64,000 bases of DNA from Microbacterium album (GTDB lineage: Bacteria; Actinomycetota; Actinomycetes; Actinomycetales; Microbacteriaceae). The number at the start of each line of letters is the position of its first letter. The stretch's first letter is position 1. The stretch spans positions 434,001 to 498,000 of the forward strand of contig NZ_BMJY01000001.1 in the NCBI RefSeq assembly GCF_014643695.1, given 5' to 3'. The position numbers and the translations under genes are program-made. Under the pieces are notes generated by a model, which worked only from the letters and a program-made list of their open reading frames with translations, did no database searches and was not told the origin of the DNA. Below are positions 47,030 to 54,339 of this stretch, in pieces.

Positions 47030-47046
47030 GTGCTACGTTGTGCTAC
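47030..47046 (+). promoter_or_regulatory. Tandem GTGCTAC repeat: -10 and operator of the Phd-PIN module
   Basis: GTGCTAC occurs at 47030-47036 and again at 47040-47046, ten bases (one helical turn) apart, ending at the antitoxin ATG. The -10 hexamer TACGTT (47034-47039) is embedded in it, seven bases before the start. Binding of the antitoxin here would block a leaderless promoter, the usual autoregulation in such modules. Confidence 0.5.
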
Positions 47047-47313
47047 ATGGAGACGGTCAGTCACCGCGAGATGCGCAACCGCAGCGGCGAGATCCTGCGG
47101 CGCGTCGAAGCGGGGGAGTCGGTGCGGGTGACGAACAACGGTCGCGTCGCCGCGCTCATCGTCCCTCCGGCAGGGGGAGTGCTCGACGGCATGATCGCCC
47201 GCGGCGAGGCTCGCGGGCCGATCGCTGACAAGGAAGCGCTGCTCGCCATCGATCCGGTCGCCTCGCCGACGCCATCCGACCAGTTGGTCGACGATGCGCG
47301 GGGGAGATGGTGA
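47047..47313 (+). CDS. Phd/YefM-family antitoxin (prevent-host-death)
   Basis: This 88-residue protein has the Phd/YefM N-terminal DNA-binding fold: VSHREMRNRSGEILRRVEAGESVRVTNNGRVAALIVP. The C-terminal half (about 45-88) is the toxin-binding tail. It overlaps the PIN toxin gene by seven bases, so synthesis is coupled. The ATG at 47047 is preferred over 47038 because the tandem GTGCTAC operator and -10 end there. It should neutralise the ribonuclease and repress its own promoter. Confidence 0.88.
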   Translation: METVSHREMRNRSGEILRRVEAGESVRVTNNGRVAALIVPPAGGVLDGMIARGEARGPIADKEALLAIDPVASPTPSDQLVDDARGRW

Positions 47314-47696
47314 CATCCGCGTATCTCGACACGTCCGCAGCGATGAAACTCATCGTTCTCGAGGACGAGACATCGGCGTTGCGGACATGGTGGGGCGGCA
47401 CCGAGGCCACCATCGCGTCCTCCTGGCTGCTCCACACGGAGTTGCACTGCGCCGCCGGCCGTCGGCCCGAACTCGTCACGCCGACGTCCATCGCCGCGAT
47501 CCTCGGCGCCGTCACGCTCATCGACATCACACGCGGCGATCTGCTCGCGGCGGGCACGCACGCGCCGCTCCGGTCGAATGACGCGATCCACCTGGCCACG
47601 GCGCTCCGGATTGGAGCCGACGAGCTGATCACGTACGACAGTGAGCTGGCCGGCGCCGCGAGGGCCGCGGGACTCCGGGTGTCCTCACCGCGCTGA
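47307..47696 (+). CDS. PIN-domain ribonuclease toxin (VapC-like)
   Basis: This 129-residue protein is a PIN domain with Asp8 in AYLDTSAAMKL, Glu residues in TELHC, and the C-terminal NDAIHLATALRIGADELITYD with further acidic metal ligands. Such toxins cleave tRNA or rRNA. It is paired with a Phd-type antitoxin, a combination common in actinobacteria. The toxin start lies inside the antitoxin gene. The target RNA cannot be deduced. Confidence 0.88.
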   Translation: MVTSAYLDTSAAMKLIVLEDETSALRTWWGGTEATIASSWLLHTELHCAAGRRPELVTPTSIAAILGAVTLIDITRGDLLAAGTHAPLRSNDAIHLATALRIGADELITYDSELAGAARAAGLRVSSPR

Positions 47697-49266: not shown

Positions 49267-49524
49267 TCAGTCATCGTCCGCGAGGTTGTGCGCGGCGCCT
49301 CGTCCCGCCTCAAGGCGATCCATGGCATCGAGCAGACGGCGCGCGTTCGCAGGCGACCGCATCAGGTATGCGGTCTCGCGCAGGGACTCGAACTCCTCCA
49401 GAGACACGATCACGACGGGATCGTGCCCGGCGCGGGTGATGACGACCTCTTCCCGATCGTCGACCACGGCACTCAGCACCTCGGCATAGCGAGCACGCGA
49501 CTCGCTGTAGCTCATCGTCTTCAA
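49267..49524 (-). CDS. yefM: YefM-family antitoxin
   Basis: This 85-residue antitoxin begins MKTMSYSESRARYAEVLSAV, the standard YefM N-terminus, and continues with VVITRAGHDPVVIVSLEEFESLRETAYLM. The start is taken as TTG at 49524 because GGGGAGG lies six bases upstream and family proteins begin MKT; the ATG at 49515 would lose three residues. Its promoter carries two TGTACA motifs for autorepression. It binds YoeB and represses the operon as a complex. Confidence 0.93.
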   Translation of the reverse strand: MKTMSYSESRARYAEVLSAVVDDREEVVITRAGHDPVVIVSLEEFESLRETAYLMRSPANARRLLDAMDRLEAGRGAAHNLADDD

Positions 49525-49666: not shown

Positions 49667-49710
49667 CGTCACGCGTTGTTCACCGTGGGGCCTCTTCCGG
49701 TTCACCTGTG
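49667..49710 (+). promoter_or_regulatory. Putative Pho box (PhoP/RegX3-type direct repeats)
   Basis: GTTCACC occurs exactly at 49678-49684 and at 49700-49706, 22 bp or two 11-bp units apart; a weaker unit CGTCACG starts at 49667. Streptomyces PhoP and mycobacterial RegX3 bind GTTCACC repeats in 11-bp steps. The site is about 93-120 bases before a secreted phosphodiester-cleaving enzyme gene, fitting phosphate control. The rest of 49560-49798 shows no gene. Confidence 0.6.
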
Positions 49711-49798
49711 CTCGGGAGGGTCGAGAACGTCGTGCCCAGATTCCGACTCCGGTCGCGCGGGCCGACAGAACACCTATCCCCCCTACAGGAGATCCTCC

Positions 49799-52700
49799 AT
49801 GCATTTGCGCTCACGCACGCGCGCCAGCGGTGTGTTGGCGGCGTTGACCGCCGCCACACTCGCCATCGCCCTCGCGCCGACAGCTGCCTTCGCGGCGCCG
49901 CTGCCCCCCGTCGTCGTCGACGGAATGAACCTCGACTCGCAGGGTGCTGCGGTCGTCAACAACCTCGAGCGCGCGGAGCTCGCTCCCGGCCTCGTGCACG
50001 TGAAGTACGAGCGCCTGGACGCGTCGGGCTGGCAGCAGGTGAACATCCTCAAGGCGCAGCTGAGCCCGGAGACGGTGCGCGTCGGCTACCTCAGCCCCGA
50101 GACGATCGCGGGTGACGGTGCGACGGTCACGGAGATGGTGGACGGCGCCGGCGCCGTCGCGGGGATCAATCTCGACCGCTTCGACATCAACAACTCGAAC
50201 GCGGCCGCGGGATGGGGCGTGCAGAACGGGGAGATCCTGAAGTCCGGCAACCCGGACGCGGCGCCCTCGATCGTGATCGATCAGCACGGTCTGGGCTCGC
50301 TCACGGACCTCCTGCTCGAGGGCAGCGTGGCCTTCGGCGACAGGACGCTCCGCCTCGGCGGCATCAACGTCACCTCGCTCGGAACCGGCGTGGCGCTCTA
50401 CACGCCGCGCTGGGGCTCCTACAGCCGTGCGCGCGTGCTCAACGGCGGCGCGGGCGTCGAGGTCCTTGTGGGCCCGGACGACCGCGTGCAGTCGGTCTCG
50501 GAGACCGTCGGCGAGGGCCAGCTGCCCGAGGGTGTGCGTGCGATCGTCGCACCGGCGTCGCGTGCAGAGGCCGCGGCGCTGCGCACCCTCCAGCCCGGCG
50601 ACCTCGTCTCGATCGACTACCGCATCGACGCGGGAGAGCTCGAGGTCCAGGAGGCCGGCGGCGCCTGGCACCGCATCCTCCGGGACGGCGAGGTCGTGCG
50701 CGCGAGCAACAACGATCTTCACCCCCGCACGATGGTGGGCTTCAGTGAGGACGGCGCCACGGCGTACTTCGTGCAGGTGGACGGTCGCACCGCGATCGCC
50801 CGCGGCATGACGCTGACCGAGCAGGGCCAGTTCATGAAGGACCTCGGCGCGCACAACGCCACCAACGTCGACGGCGGCGGCTCGAGCCAGGTCAACGTCC
50901 GCAAGCCGGGTCACACGCTGAGCACGATCTCGAACACCCCGTCCGACGGCTACGAGCGACGTGACGGCGACGGCCTCGGGCTGTTCCTTGCGCAGCCCGG
51001 GTCCGGCAACCTCACCGGCTTCCGTCTCGAGGCCGCGCAGCAGACGCGCGAGGAAGCGCTCCGCGTCTTCCCCGGGCTCTCGCGCACCGTGCTTGCCCAC
51101 GGTCACGACGAGATGAATGCCGCTGTCGAGGCCGTGGCGCAGTCCTGGTCGACGGCAGACGCCGACGTGGCGTCCGCGGCTGCCGCGGGCGCGCGGGGCA
51201 TCGTCACCGGTGTCGCGACCGGCTCGACCGTCGTCACGGCCGGAGAGCGCGCGCAGGGCACGCTCGACGTGCGCGTGCTCGGACGGCTCGACCACCTCAG
51301 CACGGCGGAGACGAGCATCACGCTCGAGACCATCGGCTCCCGGACGATCATCGGCCTCACCGGCCACGACAAGGCCGGCTTCACGGCGCCCGTCGAGGCC
51401 CGTGACGTGACGGTGACGAACCCCACCCCGGACGTGTTCGAGGTCTCCCCCACCGATGACGGCCGTTTCGAGGTCACGGCCATCGGCGAGGAGGGCACGG
51501 CGCGACTCGTGTTCGAGGCCGACGGCGTCACGCTCGAGGTCATCGTCGCGGTTCCGCTCGAGGTGCGACTGATCGACGACTTCTCCGACATCAGCGGCTG
51601 GACCACGGCGCACGACCGCGCTCCGACCGGATCGGTGGAGCCGGGCGAGGGTCATGAGGGCAGCCCCAGCATCCGCGTGAACTACAACTTCACCGAGTCG
51701 ACCGGCACGCGCGGCCGCTACGCCGTGGCGCCGGGTGCCGTTCCCGGCGGCTCGGGCGGCATCGACATCCCGGGTCGCCCGCAGAAGCTGTCGGTCTGGG
51801 TCAAGGGCGACGGCAAGGGCTCGCTCCTGCGCCTGCAGGTGATGCAGGCCAACGGCGTGCGCAACTGGATCGACGGCCCGGATGGGCAGCAGTCGCTCCA
51901 CACCACGTGGACCGGCTGGGAGCGCCAGGACTTCATCGTCCCCGAGTCGTTCGAGTTTCCCCTGAAGCTCGAGCGCATCCGCGTGCTGGAGACGGTCGCG
52001 GCCAAGCAGTACACGGGCTCGCTCGAGTTCTCGAAGATCTACGCCTACCTCCCGCCGGAGGGCGTGGAGGCACCCGTCGTGAACCGGGTCGAGGACCCGG
52101 TGATCGCTCCCGCCGGCGCGACCGACGGCGACCCGCTGCGCGTGGCTGTGTTCTCCGACGCGCAGTTCGTCGCCCGCAACCCCAACAGCGGCGCGGTGCA
52201 GGGCGCGCGGGAAGCGCTGCGCGAGATCGTGGCGTCCGAGCCCGACCTCATGCTGCTGAACGGCGACTTCGTCGATGAGGCTGCCCCTGAGGACTTCGAG
52301 CTCGCTCGACGCATCCTCGACGAGGAGCTCGAGGGTGCGGACTTCCCGTGGTACTACCTCCCCGGCAACCACGAGATCATGGGCGCCTCGATCAACAACT
52401 TCCGTGCGGCGTTCGGTGACACGTACCGCACGGTTGACGTCGAGGGCACGCGCTTCATCATGATGAACTCCGCGACCGCCCGCATGGCCAGCGAGTTCGC
52501 GCAGGTGCAGATGCTGCGCGCGCAGCTGGACGACGCTGCCACCAACCCCGAGATCACGGGCGTCATGCTCGTGTCGCACATGCCGACGAACGATCCGCTT
52601 CCGACCAAGGGCAGCCAGCTGACGGATCGGAACGAAGCCGCGATGATCGACAACTGGCTGCAGGACTTCCGCGAGTCCAGCGGGAAGTCGGCGGCCTACA

Positions 52701-54271
52701 TCGCCGGTCACGTGGGCGTCTTCCACAGCTCCAGCGTCGACGGAGTGCCGTACGTCATCAGCGGGAACTCGGGCAAGGATCCCGCGTCGACGCCTGCGAA
52801 CGGTGGCTTCACCGGCTGGATGATGCTCGGTGTGGATCCCGCCCAGGGTCTGTGGCGCGACGCCGAGGGCTCGTGGCTCAAGGTCGAGACGAAGGCGCGC
52901 GTCGACGAGTCCGGCCTCACGGTCTCGGCTCCCGAGCGCCTCGTCTTCGGCGAGTCCGGCGAGGTGTCGGCGAGCTTCACGCAGGACGAGGGCCGGGTCG
53001 TTCCGGTCGCCTGGCCGGTGTCGAGCGCGTGGGGCGGAGACGGCGTGCACGTCGGGAATGCCCAGGACGCGCCCGAGGATGCCGTGGTCGCCATCGACCC
53101 GCGTGCCGGGACGATCGAGGCCGTCGGCGTAGGCACCGCTCGCATCGACGTCACGGTCAACGGCGAGACCGCCCAGGCCGACCTCGTGGTCGCGCCGAAG
53201 CAGTTCGAGCTGGGCGACGCGACCCTCGACGTCACGGGCACTGCGGCCGTCGGCGGCACGCTGACCGCCGCTCACGTGTGGTCGGTGCCCGAGGGCGCTG
53301 AGGTCTCGTACCGGTGGCTGCGCGACGGCGAGCCGATCGCCGGCGCCGAGGGCCTGACCTACGACGTCACCGCCGGCGACCTCGGGAGCGAGATCGTCGC
53401 CGAGGCGACGGTCACCGCTCGCGGCCACGCGCCCGCCGTCGTGCCCAGCAATGCGGTGGTCATCGGCGAGGGCGAGCTCGTGCTCGTCGCCGCCCCCACC
53501 GTGTCCGGCGAGCGCGCCGTCGGCGGACTGCTCACCGCGACGCTCGGCGAGTGGGATCTGGCCACGGAGACGCAGCTCGTGTGGCTGCGCGACGGCGAGC
53601 CGATCGCCGGCGCCGAGGGCACCGAGTACCGCCTCACCGCGGCCGACTCCCTCGCCGAGATCAGCGTCGAGGTCACCGCGACCGCAGCGGGCTACGGCAC
53701 GGCCGTCGTCCGGAGCGCCGCTGCGCTGGTCGACCAGCGCCCGCTGATCGTCCAGCCGGCGCCGAACCCCGGCGCCGACGGTCTCGACGGCGGTAACCGC
53801 GGCGGAGTGTCCGCGACGCTGAACGGCTCGGTGGCGACCCTGACGCTGCCGAGCGGGATCGCCGTGGACGGCGAGTGGCTCTCCGTCTACGCGTTCTCCA
53901 CGCCGCAGCCGCTCGGCTGGCAGGCCGTCTCGGCGGACGCCGTTCGGGTGGACGTGTCGGCACTCGCGGCCGGCGAGCACCGTCTCGCGCTGTACCGGGT
54001 CGACGGCACGCTGATCGGCTGGGCGCCGATCACGATCGCGGCCGCGCCGTCCGACGCCGATCAGGACACCGACGGCGCCACCGACGGTGCATCCGACGGC
54101 GCGACGGACCGCGACCCGTCCACGGGCGGCTCCTCGGCCAGCGACCCGCTGGCGACCACCGGGGTCGGCGACCCGACGGCGGTCTGGGTGGTCGCGGCGG
54201 TCGCGCTCCTGCTCGGCGGCGCCGGCCTCTGGCTCGCGCAGCGCGTACGCGCCCGCCGTCAGGAGGACTGA
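49799..54271 (+). CDS. Secreted, cell-wall-anchored phosphodiester glycosidase-metallophosphoesterase
   Basis: This 1490-residue surface protein has a signal peptide (about 1-33, ending AFA), a phosphodiester glycosidase (NAGPA-like) domain (~50-400) with NVDGGGSS near 357, Ig-like and sugar-binding-like segments, and a calcineurin-like metallophosphoesterase (~780-1010) with FSDAQF, NGDFVDE, PGNHE, VSHMP and AGHVGVFH metal ligands. Ig-like repeats follow, two sharing WLRDGEPIAGAEG, then a Thr/Asp linker, sorting motif LATTG (1451-1455, class E sortase type), a membrane helix and a basic tail. AGGAG precedes the ATG. It may release phosphate from wall teichoic acids or other phosphodiesters outside the cell; that is inference. 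Confidence 0.88.
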   Translation: MHLRSRTRASGVLAALTAATLAIALAPTAAFAAPLPPVVVDGMNLDSQGAAVVNNLERAELAPGLVHVKYERLDASGWQQVNILKAQLSPETVRVGYLSPETIAGDGATVTEMVDGAGAVAGINLDRFDINNSNAAAGWGVQNGEILKSGNPDAAPSIVIDQHGLGSLTDLLLEGSVAFGDRTLRLGGINVTSLGTGVALYTPRWGSYSRARVLNGGAGVEVLVGPDDRVQSVSETVGEGQLPEGVRAIVAPASRAEAAALRTLQPGDLVSIDYRIDAGELEVQEAGGAWHRILRDGEVVRASNNDLHPRTMVGFSEDGATAYFVQVDGRTAIARGMTLTEQGQFMKDLGAHNATNVDGGGSSQVNVRKPGHTLSTISNTPSDGYERRDGDGLGLFLAQPGSGNLTGFRLEAAQQTREEALRVFPGLSRTVLAHGHDEMNAAVEAVAQSWSTADADVASAAAAGARGIVTGVATGSTVVTAGERAQGTLDVRVLGRLDHLSTAETSITLETIGSRTIIGLTGHDKAGFTAPVEARDVTVTNPTPDVFEVSPTDDGRFEVTAIGEEGTARLVFEADGVTLEVIVAVPLEVRLIDDFSDISGWTTAHDRAPTGSVEPGEGHEGSPSIRVNYNFTESTGTRGRYAVAPGAVPGGSGGIDIPGRPQKLSVWVKGDGKGSLLRLQVMQANGVRNWIDGPDGQQSLHTTWTGWERQDFIVPESFEFPLKLERIRVLETVAAKQYTGSLEFSKIYAYLPPEGVEAPVVNRVEDPVIAPAGATDGDPLRVAVFSDAQFVARNPNSGAVQGAREALREIVASEPDLMLLNGDFVDEAAPEDFELARRILDEELEGADFPWYYLPGNHEIMGASINNFRAAFGDTYRTVDVEGTRFIMMNSATARMASEFAQVQMLRAQLDDAATNPEITGVMLVSHMPTNDPLPTKGSQLTDRNEAAMIDNWLQDFRESSGKSAAYIAGHVGVFHSSSVDGVPYVISGNSGKDPASTPANGGFTGWMMLGVDPAQGLWRDAEGSWLKVETKARVDESGLTVSAPERLVFGESGEVSASFTQDEGRVVPVAWPVSSAWGGDGVHVGNAQDAPEDAVVAIDPRAGTIEAVGVGTARIDVTVNGETAQADLVVAPKQFELGDATLDVTGTAAVGGTLTAAHVWSVPEGAEVSYRWLRDGEPIAGAEGLTYDVTAGDLGSEIVAEATVTARGHAPAVVPSNAVVIGEGELVLVAAPTVSGERAVGGLLTATLGEWDLATETQLVWLRDGEPIAGAEGTEYRLTAADSLAEISVEVTATAAGYGTAVVRSAAALVDQRPLIVQPAPNPGADGLDGGNRGGVSATLNGSVATLTLPSGIAVDGEWLSVYAFSTPQPLGWQAVSADAVRVDVSALAAGEHRLALYRVDGTLIGWAPITIAAAPSDADQDTDGATDGASDGATDRDPSTGGSSASDPLATTGVGDPTAVWVVAAVALLLGGAGLWLAQRVRARRQED
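53314..53353. repeat. 40-bp direct repeat, copy 1 (Ig-like module)
   Basis: These 40 bases are identical to 53581-53620, 267 bp downstream in the same gene. They encode the shared WLRDGEPIAGAEG strand of two successive Ig-like modules. Identity at DNA level, while the rest of the modules differ, indicates gene conversion or recent recombination. Confidence 0.85.
53581..53620. repeat. 40-bp direct repeat, copy 2 (Ig-like module)
   Basis: This is the second identical 40-bp copy of the element at 53314-53353, in the same reading frame 89 codons later. Recombination between copies would delete or duplicate one Ig-like module cleanly. Confidence 0.85.
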
Positions 54272-54275
54272 GGTC

Positions 54276-54320
54276 AAAAACGCCGCGGGGCGGGTCGTCG
54301 AGAGACGGTCCGCCCCGCGG
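54276..54320 (-). terminator. Convergent terminator between the surface protein and the UvrA-like gene
   Basis: CCGCGGGGCGG (54283-54293) pairs perfectly over 11 bp with CCGCCCCGCGG (54310-54320), with a 16-base loop. On the minus strand the hairpin is followed by CGTTTTT, so it best terminates the UvrA-like gene; it may also stop the forward gene ending at 54271. Confidence 0.8.
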
Positions 54321-54339
54321 TCGTTCCAGGCGCCGGAAC

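Follow-up and report, generated by a model that had tools for sequence, protein, structure and literature searches.

Phosphate recovery and wall polymers in described systems

The gene considered here lies in a 64,000-nucleotide stretch of the Microbacterium album genome (contig NZ_BMJY01000001.1, positions 434,001 to 498,000 of the forward strand; referred to below as the window). It encodes an exported protein of 1490 residues in which a NAGPA-type phosphodiester glycosidase domain is joined to a calcineurin-like phosphoesterase domain, behind a promoter of the Pho type. In Bacillus subtilis, PhoD and GlpQ recover phosphate from teichoic acid during phosphate starvation (PMC11488536). ShfP (YvnB) of B. 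subtilis is one of many surface calcineurin-like phosphoesterases; it has a putative sigma-G site and a role in sporulation through the release of glycerol, a signal and food, and NAGPA is named among the fusion partners of its family (PMC11488536). The Pho consensus of Streptomyces coelicolor consists of GTTCACC-type direct repeats (PMC4415409). In Streptomyces, the teichulosonic acid cluster is PhoP-controlled and its polymer is free of phosphate (PMC13011467, PMC8003754). Statements attributed to these and to later cited papers follow excerpts of each source.

Compared by features, the M. album protein resembles the ShfP family in its exported calcineurin-like domain, its adhesion-type domains and a fusion partner, NAGPA, already recorded there. 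It differs in its Pho-type promoter and its LATTG motif. With PhoD and GlpQ it shares a predicted task, the recovery of wall-polymer phosphate under Pho control, and PhoD also belongs to the calcineurin-like superfamily. The M. album protein differs from them in joining NAGPA to a phosphoesterase, in a predicted target bond of the sugar-1-phosphate kind and in a SenX3-RegX3-like regulator. A further parallel leads to vertebrates. In animals, the Stealth protein GNPTAB makes GlcNAc-1-phosphate diesters and NAGPA, the uncovering enzyme, removes them. The studied protein has the NAGPA fold and its DGGGS motif, and the genome encodes a Stealth protein; identity in the fold matches is about 16 per cent, and the pairing is an analogy.

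Fusions of NAGPA to ShfP-type phosphoesterases are already known; the new elements are the Pho promoter and a predicted swap of wall polymers. Among the matches listed from the open-access literature, no link of NAGPA-phosphoesterase fusions to the Pho regulon and no use of the term 'phosphodiester glycosidase' were found. In the same literature, no paper was found that treats a NAGPA domain together with wall teichoic acid.

A Pho-type promoter upstream of the gene

Two perfect GTTCACC half-sites stand on the forward strand at 49678-49684 and 49700-49706, spaced by 22 bp, or 2 x 11. The pair lies at -121 bp from the ATG of the 1490-residue open reading frame (ORF). The 11-bp unit between the two heptamers fits the consensus at 3 of 7 bases only. 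The sequence-only reading of the window had pointed to two perfect heptamers in 11-bp register, and this description holds, with a spacing of 22 bp and a non-matching middle unit. The studied promoter thus has the tandem GTTCACC-type units, set in 11-bp register, that mark promoters of the actinobacterial Pho regulon, and its poor middle unit resembles the phoU site.

Within the window, GTTCACC-N15-GTTCACC with at most one mismatch occurs once, against a mean of 0.02 in 100 shuffles. The lone heptamer is over-represented (13 occurrences versus 4.84 in shuffles), so that a single GTTCACC means little and only the pair is informative. Under a looser rule, which asks for 12 matching bases out of 14 at spacings of 11, 22 or 33 bp on either strand, the window has six sites; only the studied pair matches at all 14 bases, and the remaining five fall inside called ORFs. 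The 3.39-Mb genome holds two perfect GTTCACC-N15-GTTCACC pairs, the studied one included, and no perfect pair of the 11-bp form (GTTCACC-N4-GTTCACC). When up to two mismatches are allowed, the genome scan gives 31 rows for the 11-bp pattern versus 5 for its reversed control, and 25 versus 14 for the 22-bp pattern; some of these rows are a single site read in several registers, as with C3:91294 and C3:91316.

The hexamer GAGGGT (NANNNT), a putative -10 element at 49716-49721 on the forward strand, starts 9 nt after the last half-site. An NANNNT hexamer lies at exactly this distance in five promoters of the genome, namely those of the studied gene, its paralog, pstS, phoU and a nonulosonate cluster. 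Among 35 sites from this and other genomes, the 9-nt offset occurs 11 times, versus 0 to 3 times for each other offset from 0 to 23.

Pho-type boxes at other genes of the genome

A genome scan of GTTCACC pairs, proposed as a check in the sequence-only reading, places the same or a similar geometry at phoU, at pstS, at a second pst-type operon and at the nonulosonate cluster. The phoU gene (C6:70373-70936) stands beside divergent genes for a histidine kinase and an OmpR-type regulator (Pfam), which are SenX3-RegX3-like by position. The intergenic box, GTTTACC-N15-GTTCACC, has one mismatch and the same 22-bp geometry as the studied gene. The pstS promoter carries GTTCACC-N4-GTTTACC-N15-CTTCACC. 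In the second pst-type operon, which encodes two permeases and a phosphate-binding-type protein (L103 10798-15192, C24, minus strand), the first gene is preceded at about 98 bp by CGTCACC-N4-GTTCACC. A paralog of the studied gene (C7:56301-59663), 50% identical and without the C-terminal anchor part, is preceded by GTTCAAC and GTTCACT, 33 bp apart, at -122. Given these observations, Pho control of the studied gene appears highly probable from sequence.

Two further sites were recorded in the scan. At C1:98027 (L096 7232-8066, minus strand), GTTCACC-N15-GTTCACG lies ahead of the gene for a membrane protein that matches no Pfam family, with TagF-type genes about 5 kb away. At C10:46582 and C10:46653 (L029 1501-1589), two one-mismatch pairs stand 71 bp apart in the gap that separates a VTT-domain gene from a divergent glycosyltransferase-4 gene.

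The second perfect pair in this genome, accompanied by a further ATTCACC unit, lies at C3:91294-91355 on the minus strand (L095 960-5356). The genes downstream encode a NeuB synthase, a NeuA-like cytidylyltransferase and a DUF6716 glycosyltransferase. The first gene of this nonulosonate cluster is present in 30 of 119 genus genomes, and in 14 of these 30 the promoter carries a pair with 12 or more matches, against an expectation of 0.12 from shuffles and 2 to 4 promoters at off-register spacings. A matrix built solely from pstS promoters (threshold 14; controls being six wrong spacings and the reverse strand) detects 15 of the 30 promoters versus 28 of 210 controls. The strongest Pho box of this genome fronts the nonulosonate cluster, a point of likeness to the teichulosonic acid cluster of S. 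coelicolor. By analogy, the same logic of Pho control and a phosphate-free polymer is likely to apply here; the comparison concerns the partner cluster and not the enzyme.

Homolog promoters and distribution

The promoter set comprised 50 sequences: the studied gene, the paralog, one copy from genome G050, ten loci from named genomes and 37 others. Two of the rows apparently come from one genome, namely G050_1 and L106, which is among the ten and seems to be the second G050 copy, and one locus with a misplaced start (L124, 265 aa read) was kept among the 50 promoters and left out of the 49 proteins. A pair that is in register and matches at 12 or more of its 14 bases occurs in 7 of the 50 promoters, where shuffles expect 0.14; wrong spacings produce 0 to 4 such promoters, and the reverse strand at the right spacings produces 2. 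The pstS-trained matrix at the same threshold detects 18 of 50 promoters versus 22 of 350 controls. Because the promoter sequences are mutually related, these counts are not to be taken as probabilities. As a positive control, a pair with 12 or more matches was present in 9 of 11 pstS promoters, one of the 11 (L164) being a partial match.

The full-length protein is found in 2 of 59 genus genomes. Its N-terminal piece of 363 residues has matches (E of 1e-30 or lower) in 9 of 398 family genomes and 63 of 394 class genomes. One genome, G050 (L094 6598-15677), has two copies of the NAGPA-phosphoesterase gene with an exported-protein-like ORF between them, and no strong Pho pair precedes either.

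By sequence, Pho control is well supported for the studied gene, fairly supported for the paralog and predicted in only part of the family. The Pho control put forward in the sequence-only reading is in this sense sustained by the boxes at phoU, pstS, the second pst-type operon and the nonulosonate cluster and by the homologs that keep a box; it is not predicted for the family as a whole.

Domain architecture and predicted activities

The gene, an ORF with an ATG start, occupies 49799-54271 on the forward strand, the strand of all the protein features listed below and of the hairpin after the stop codon. A signal peptide of about residues 1-32 (49799-49894) was judged by eye from the translation. 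The NAGPA domain covers residues 230-396 (50486-50986; PF09992, 1.1e-26, 94.5 bits versus a curated cut-off of 25), and the calcineurin-like phosphoesterase domain covers residues 780-973 (52136-52717; PF00149 Metallophos, 2.4e-9, 38.3 bits versus a curated cut-off of 21.5, and Foldseek). Between them, the structure model shows a beta-sandwich like family 11 carbohydrate-binding modules, at about residues 585-754 (51551-52060, approximate limits); it matches 1v0a in Foldseek at 6.9e-7, and Pfam CBM_11 reaches 0.15 only, below its cut-off. Ig-like repeats follow at about residues 1142-1322 (53222-53764). Similar repeats occur in many other proteins of the genus, and those of this protein also give a phage Hoc-like match; for a phage link, PHROGs matches are weak, the best at 4.5e-5. 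The LATTG sortase-type motif, read in the sequence, spans residues 1451-1455 (54149-54163) and precedes a hydrophobic stretch and a basic tail (54179-54268), both judged by eye from the translation. The sequence-only description of the protein, with its 1490 residues, its NAGPA-type and calcineurin-type domains and its terminal LATTG, is in this way confirmed by ORF, Pfam and motif.

By profile, the NAGPA region is similar to 3ohg, a bacterial DUF2233 structure, at 2.2e-21 and to vertebrate NAGPA at 6.6e-8 to 1.8e-6, and Foldseek recovers both by fold at the low identity mentioned above. R310, N124 and the DGGGS motif (residues 358-362) are unchanged in 49 of 49 homologs. A NAGPA-type activity of the protein is somewhat more likely than not.

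By sequence, the phosphoesterase is nearest to the glycerophosphodiesterase GpdQ. By fold, it is nearest to two diesterases, GpdQ (1.0e-10) and Rv0805 (1.2e-10). Its motifs are D-x-Q and GNHE (48 of 49 homologs each) and H927 and H971-V-G (13 of the 13 that reach that far); 36 of the 49 homolog proteins stop at a locus edge, and the last two motifs were counted on 13 only. GpdQ-type enzymes carry D-x-H and H-x-H, within a full calcineurin-like metal set of D-x-H, GD, GNH, H and GH-x-H. Set against this pattern, the D-x-Q and H-V-G of the family suggest that one metal site may differ from the GpdQ type. The division of labour put forward in the sequence-only reading, in which one domain splits the diester and the other, as a monoesterase, frees phosphate, is possible, but no better supported than an attack on diesters by both domains.

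A terminator-like hairpin follows the stop codon at 54279-54325 (-43.9 kcal/mol, z -5.19). BLASTP of the ORFs around 11 homolog regions (E up to 1e-8, proteins of more than 1050 residues excluded) revealed no conserved partner gene, the sole match being between two related loci from metagenome-assembled genomes (L108/L113). With the hairpin and no conserved neighbour, the gene appears to be transcribed as a separate unit. A Phd/YefM-type antitoxin gene, divergent from the studied gene at 49267-49515 of the window (minus strand), is a probable member of a toxin-antitoxin pair. Further upstream, at 47038-47693 (plus strand), a PIN-domain gene preceded by a small ORF probably forms another such pair.

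Probable wall anchoring and candidate substrate

LAxTG is the motif preferred by class E sortases. Of five sortase matches in the genome, the one at C7:79395 is a class E sortase (8e-66, above its cut-off), and the protein presents the LATTG, the hydrophobic stretch and the basic tail of a sortase substrate. The only Stealth match of the genome (L216 9802-11355, C2, minus strand) has all four conserved regions, and three TagF-type matches lie close together. From these genes, the organism can probably make both sugar-1-phosphate and polyol-phosphate polymers. That the cell's own wall polymer is the main substrate of the studied protein is a prospect slightly short of even.

Proposed mechanism

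The promoter motif and geometry, the domains with their NAGPA motif, the anchor motif, the class E sortase and the Stealth, Pst and SenX3-RegX3-like genes are all present in the sequence; from them we infer regulator binding and induction, both activities, the substrate and the order of cleavage, as follows. The gene would be a stand-alone member of the phosphate-starvation regulon. Phosphorylated RegX3 would bind both half-sites and help RNA polymerase at the -10 element 9 nt downstream. After export, the class E sortase would probably attach the protein to the wall through its LATTG motif. There, the NAGPA domain could cut the sugar-1-phosphate bond of a glycosyl-phosphate polymer. The GpdQ/Rv0805-like domain would attack a remaining phosphoester, and the freed phosphate would pass to the Pst transporters. 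Taken as a whole, this chain from Pho control to phosphate recovery is modestly favoured.

The same regulon appears to turn on a phosphate-free nonulosonate polymer, for which reason the enzyme probably contributes to the replacement of a wall polymer rich in phosphate. A wider hypothesis, which we consider less likely than not, is a Pho-driven swap of wall polymers under one regulator, with NAGPA-phosphoesterases as the eraser of a Stealth-made sugar-1-phosphate polymer, whose phosphate they would recover, and the nonulosonate cluster as the writer of a phosphate-free acidic polymer. Under such a swap, bacterial Stealth and NAGPA would form a maker-and-remover pair like GNPTAB and NAGPA of animal lysosomal sorting, serving phosphate economy instead.

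Competing explanations

Several observations weigh against Pho-driven phosphate recovery at the wall. A strong pair is missing from 43 of the 50 homolog promoters, including both G050 copies, both from Cryobacterium and that from Nocardioides, and two of the seven strong pairs lie at other distances (-184 and -52). Five of the counted sites are those that first drew attention to the 9-nt offset, and it is found at 6 of the remaining 30; in this genome, it is absent at the second pst operon, C1:98027 and C3:255627. No Pho-like pair occurs in the 20-kb stretch around the Stealth gene. The phosphoesterase has variant metal motifs, with two positions that depart from the usual pattern throughout the family. 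The structure models are of moderate confidence, with a mean pLDDT of 73.4 and 67.3. A sortase-type anchor is found in 4 of 13 long homologs (one, L111, cut off before its C-terminus), and the wall anchoring suggested by the sequence-only reading is accordingly plausible for this protein, given its LATTG motif and the class E sortase that the genome encodes, and fails as a family trait. The lack of a strong pair in most homologs would also agree with a chance match and a gene outside Pho control, as would the excess of lone GTTCACC and the one-mismatch pairs that sit within ORFs of no evident phosphate role (C5:7274, C19:46333). Against such a coincidence stand the minimal expectation for the window, the same geometry at phoU and the nonulosonate cluster, the common -10 offset and the pair at the paralog. 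The shuffles, genome counts and common promoter geometry led to the rejection of chance pairing, and a gene outside Pho control seems very improbable.

The promoter evidence applies equally if the protein is a Pho-controlled scavenger of foreign phosphoglycans, teichoic acids or phospholipid head groups and leaves its own wall intact. The carbohydrate-binding-like module, the Ig-like repeats and a paralog without anchor agree with such a role, as does the GpdQ-like phosphoesterase; secreted glycerophosphodiesterases of Streptomyces are Pho genes (PMC7866108). The anchor on the studied copy would instead hold the protein at the cell, and the Stealth protein offers a likely substrate of the cell's own. 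Neither point is decisive, and we consider scavenging of foreign polymers rather unlikely. Another option is a surface enzyme of the ShfP kind, engaged in signalling, in the release of glycerol or sugar, or in wall remodelling, for which phosphate control is merely a trigger. The glycerol release by ShfP and the NAGPA fusions of its family speak for this option (PMC11488536). The promoter context of the studied gene is that of phosphate genes, however, and a sporulation signal would be out of place in a non-sporulating actinobacterium, which renders such a role improbable.

Implications

The sequence of half-site, 9 nt and NANNNT may serve as a promoter rule for locating Pho genes in similar genomes. 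If the proposed Pho-controlled recovery of wall phosphate is true, it would assign a function and a signal to the widespread NAGPA-phosphoesterase fusions, for which no tested role was found. It would also extend the Bacillus idea of the wall polymer as a phosphate store to the glycosyl-phosphate polymers of actinobacteria.

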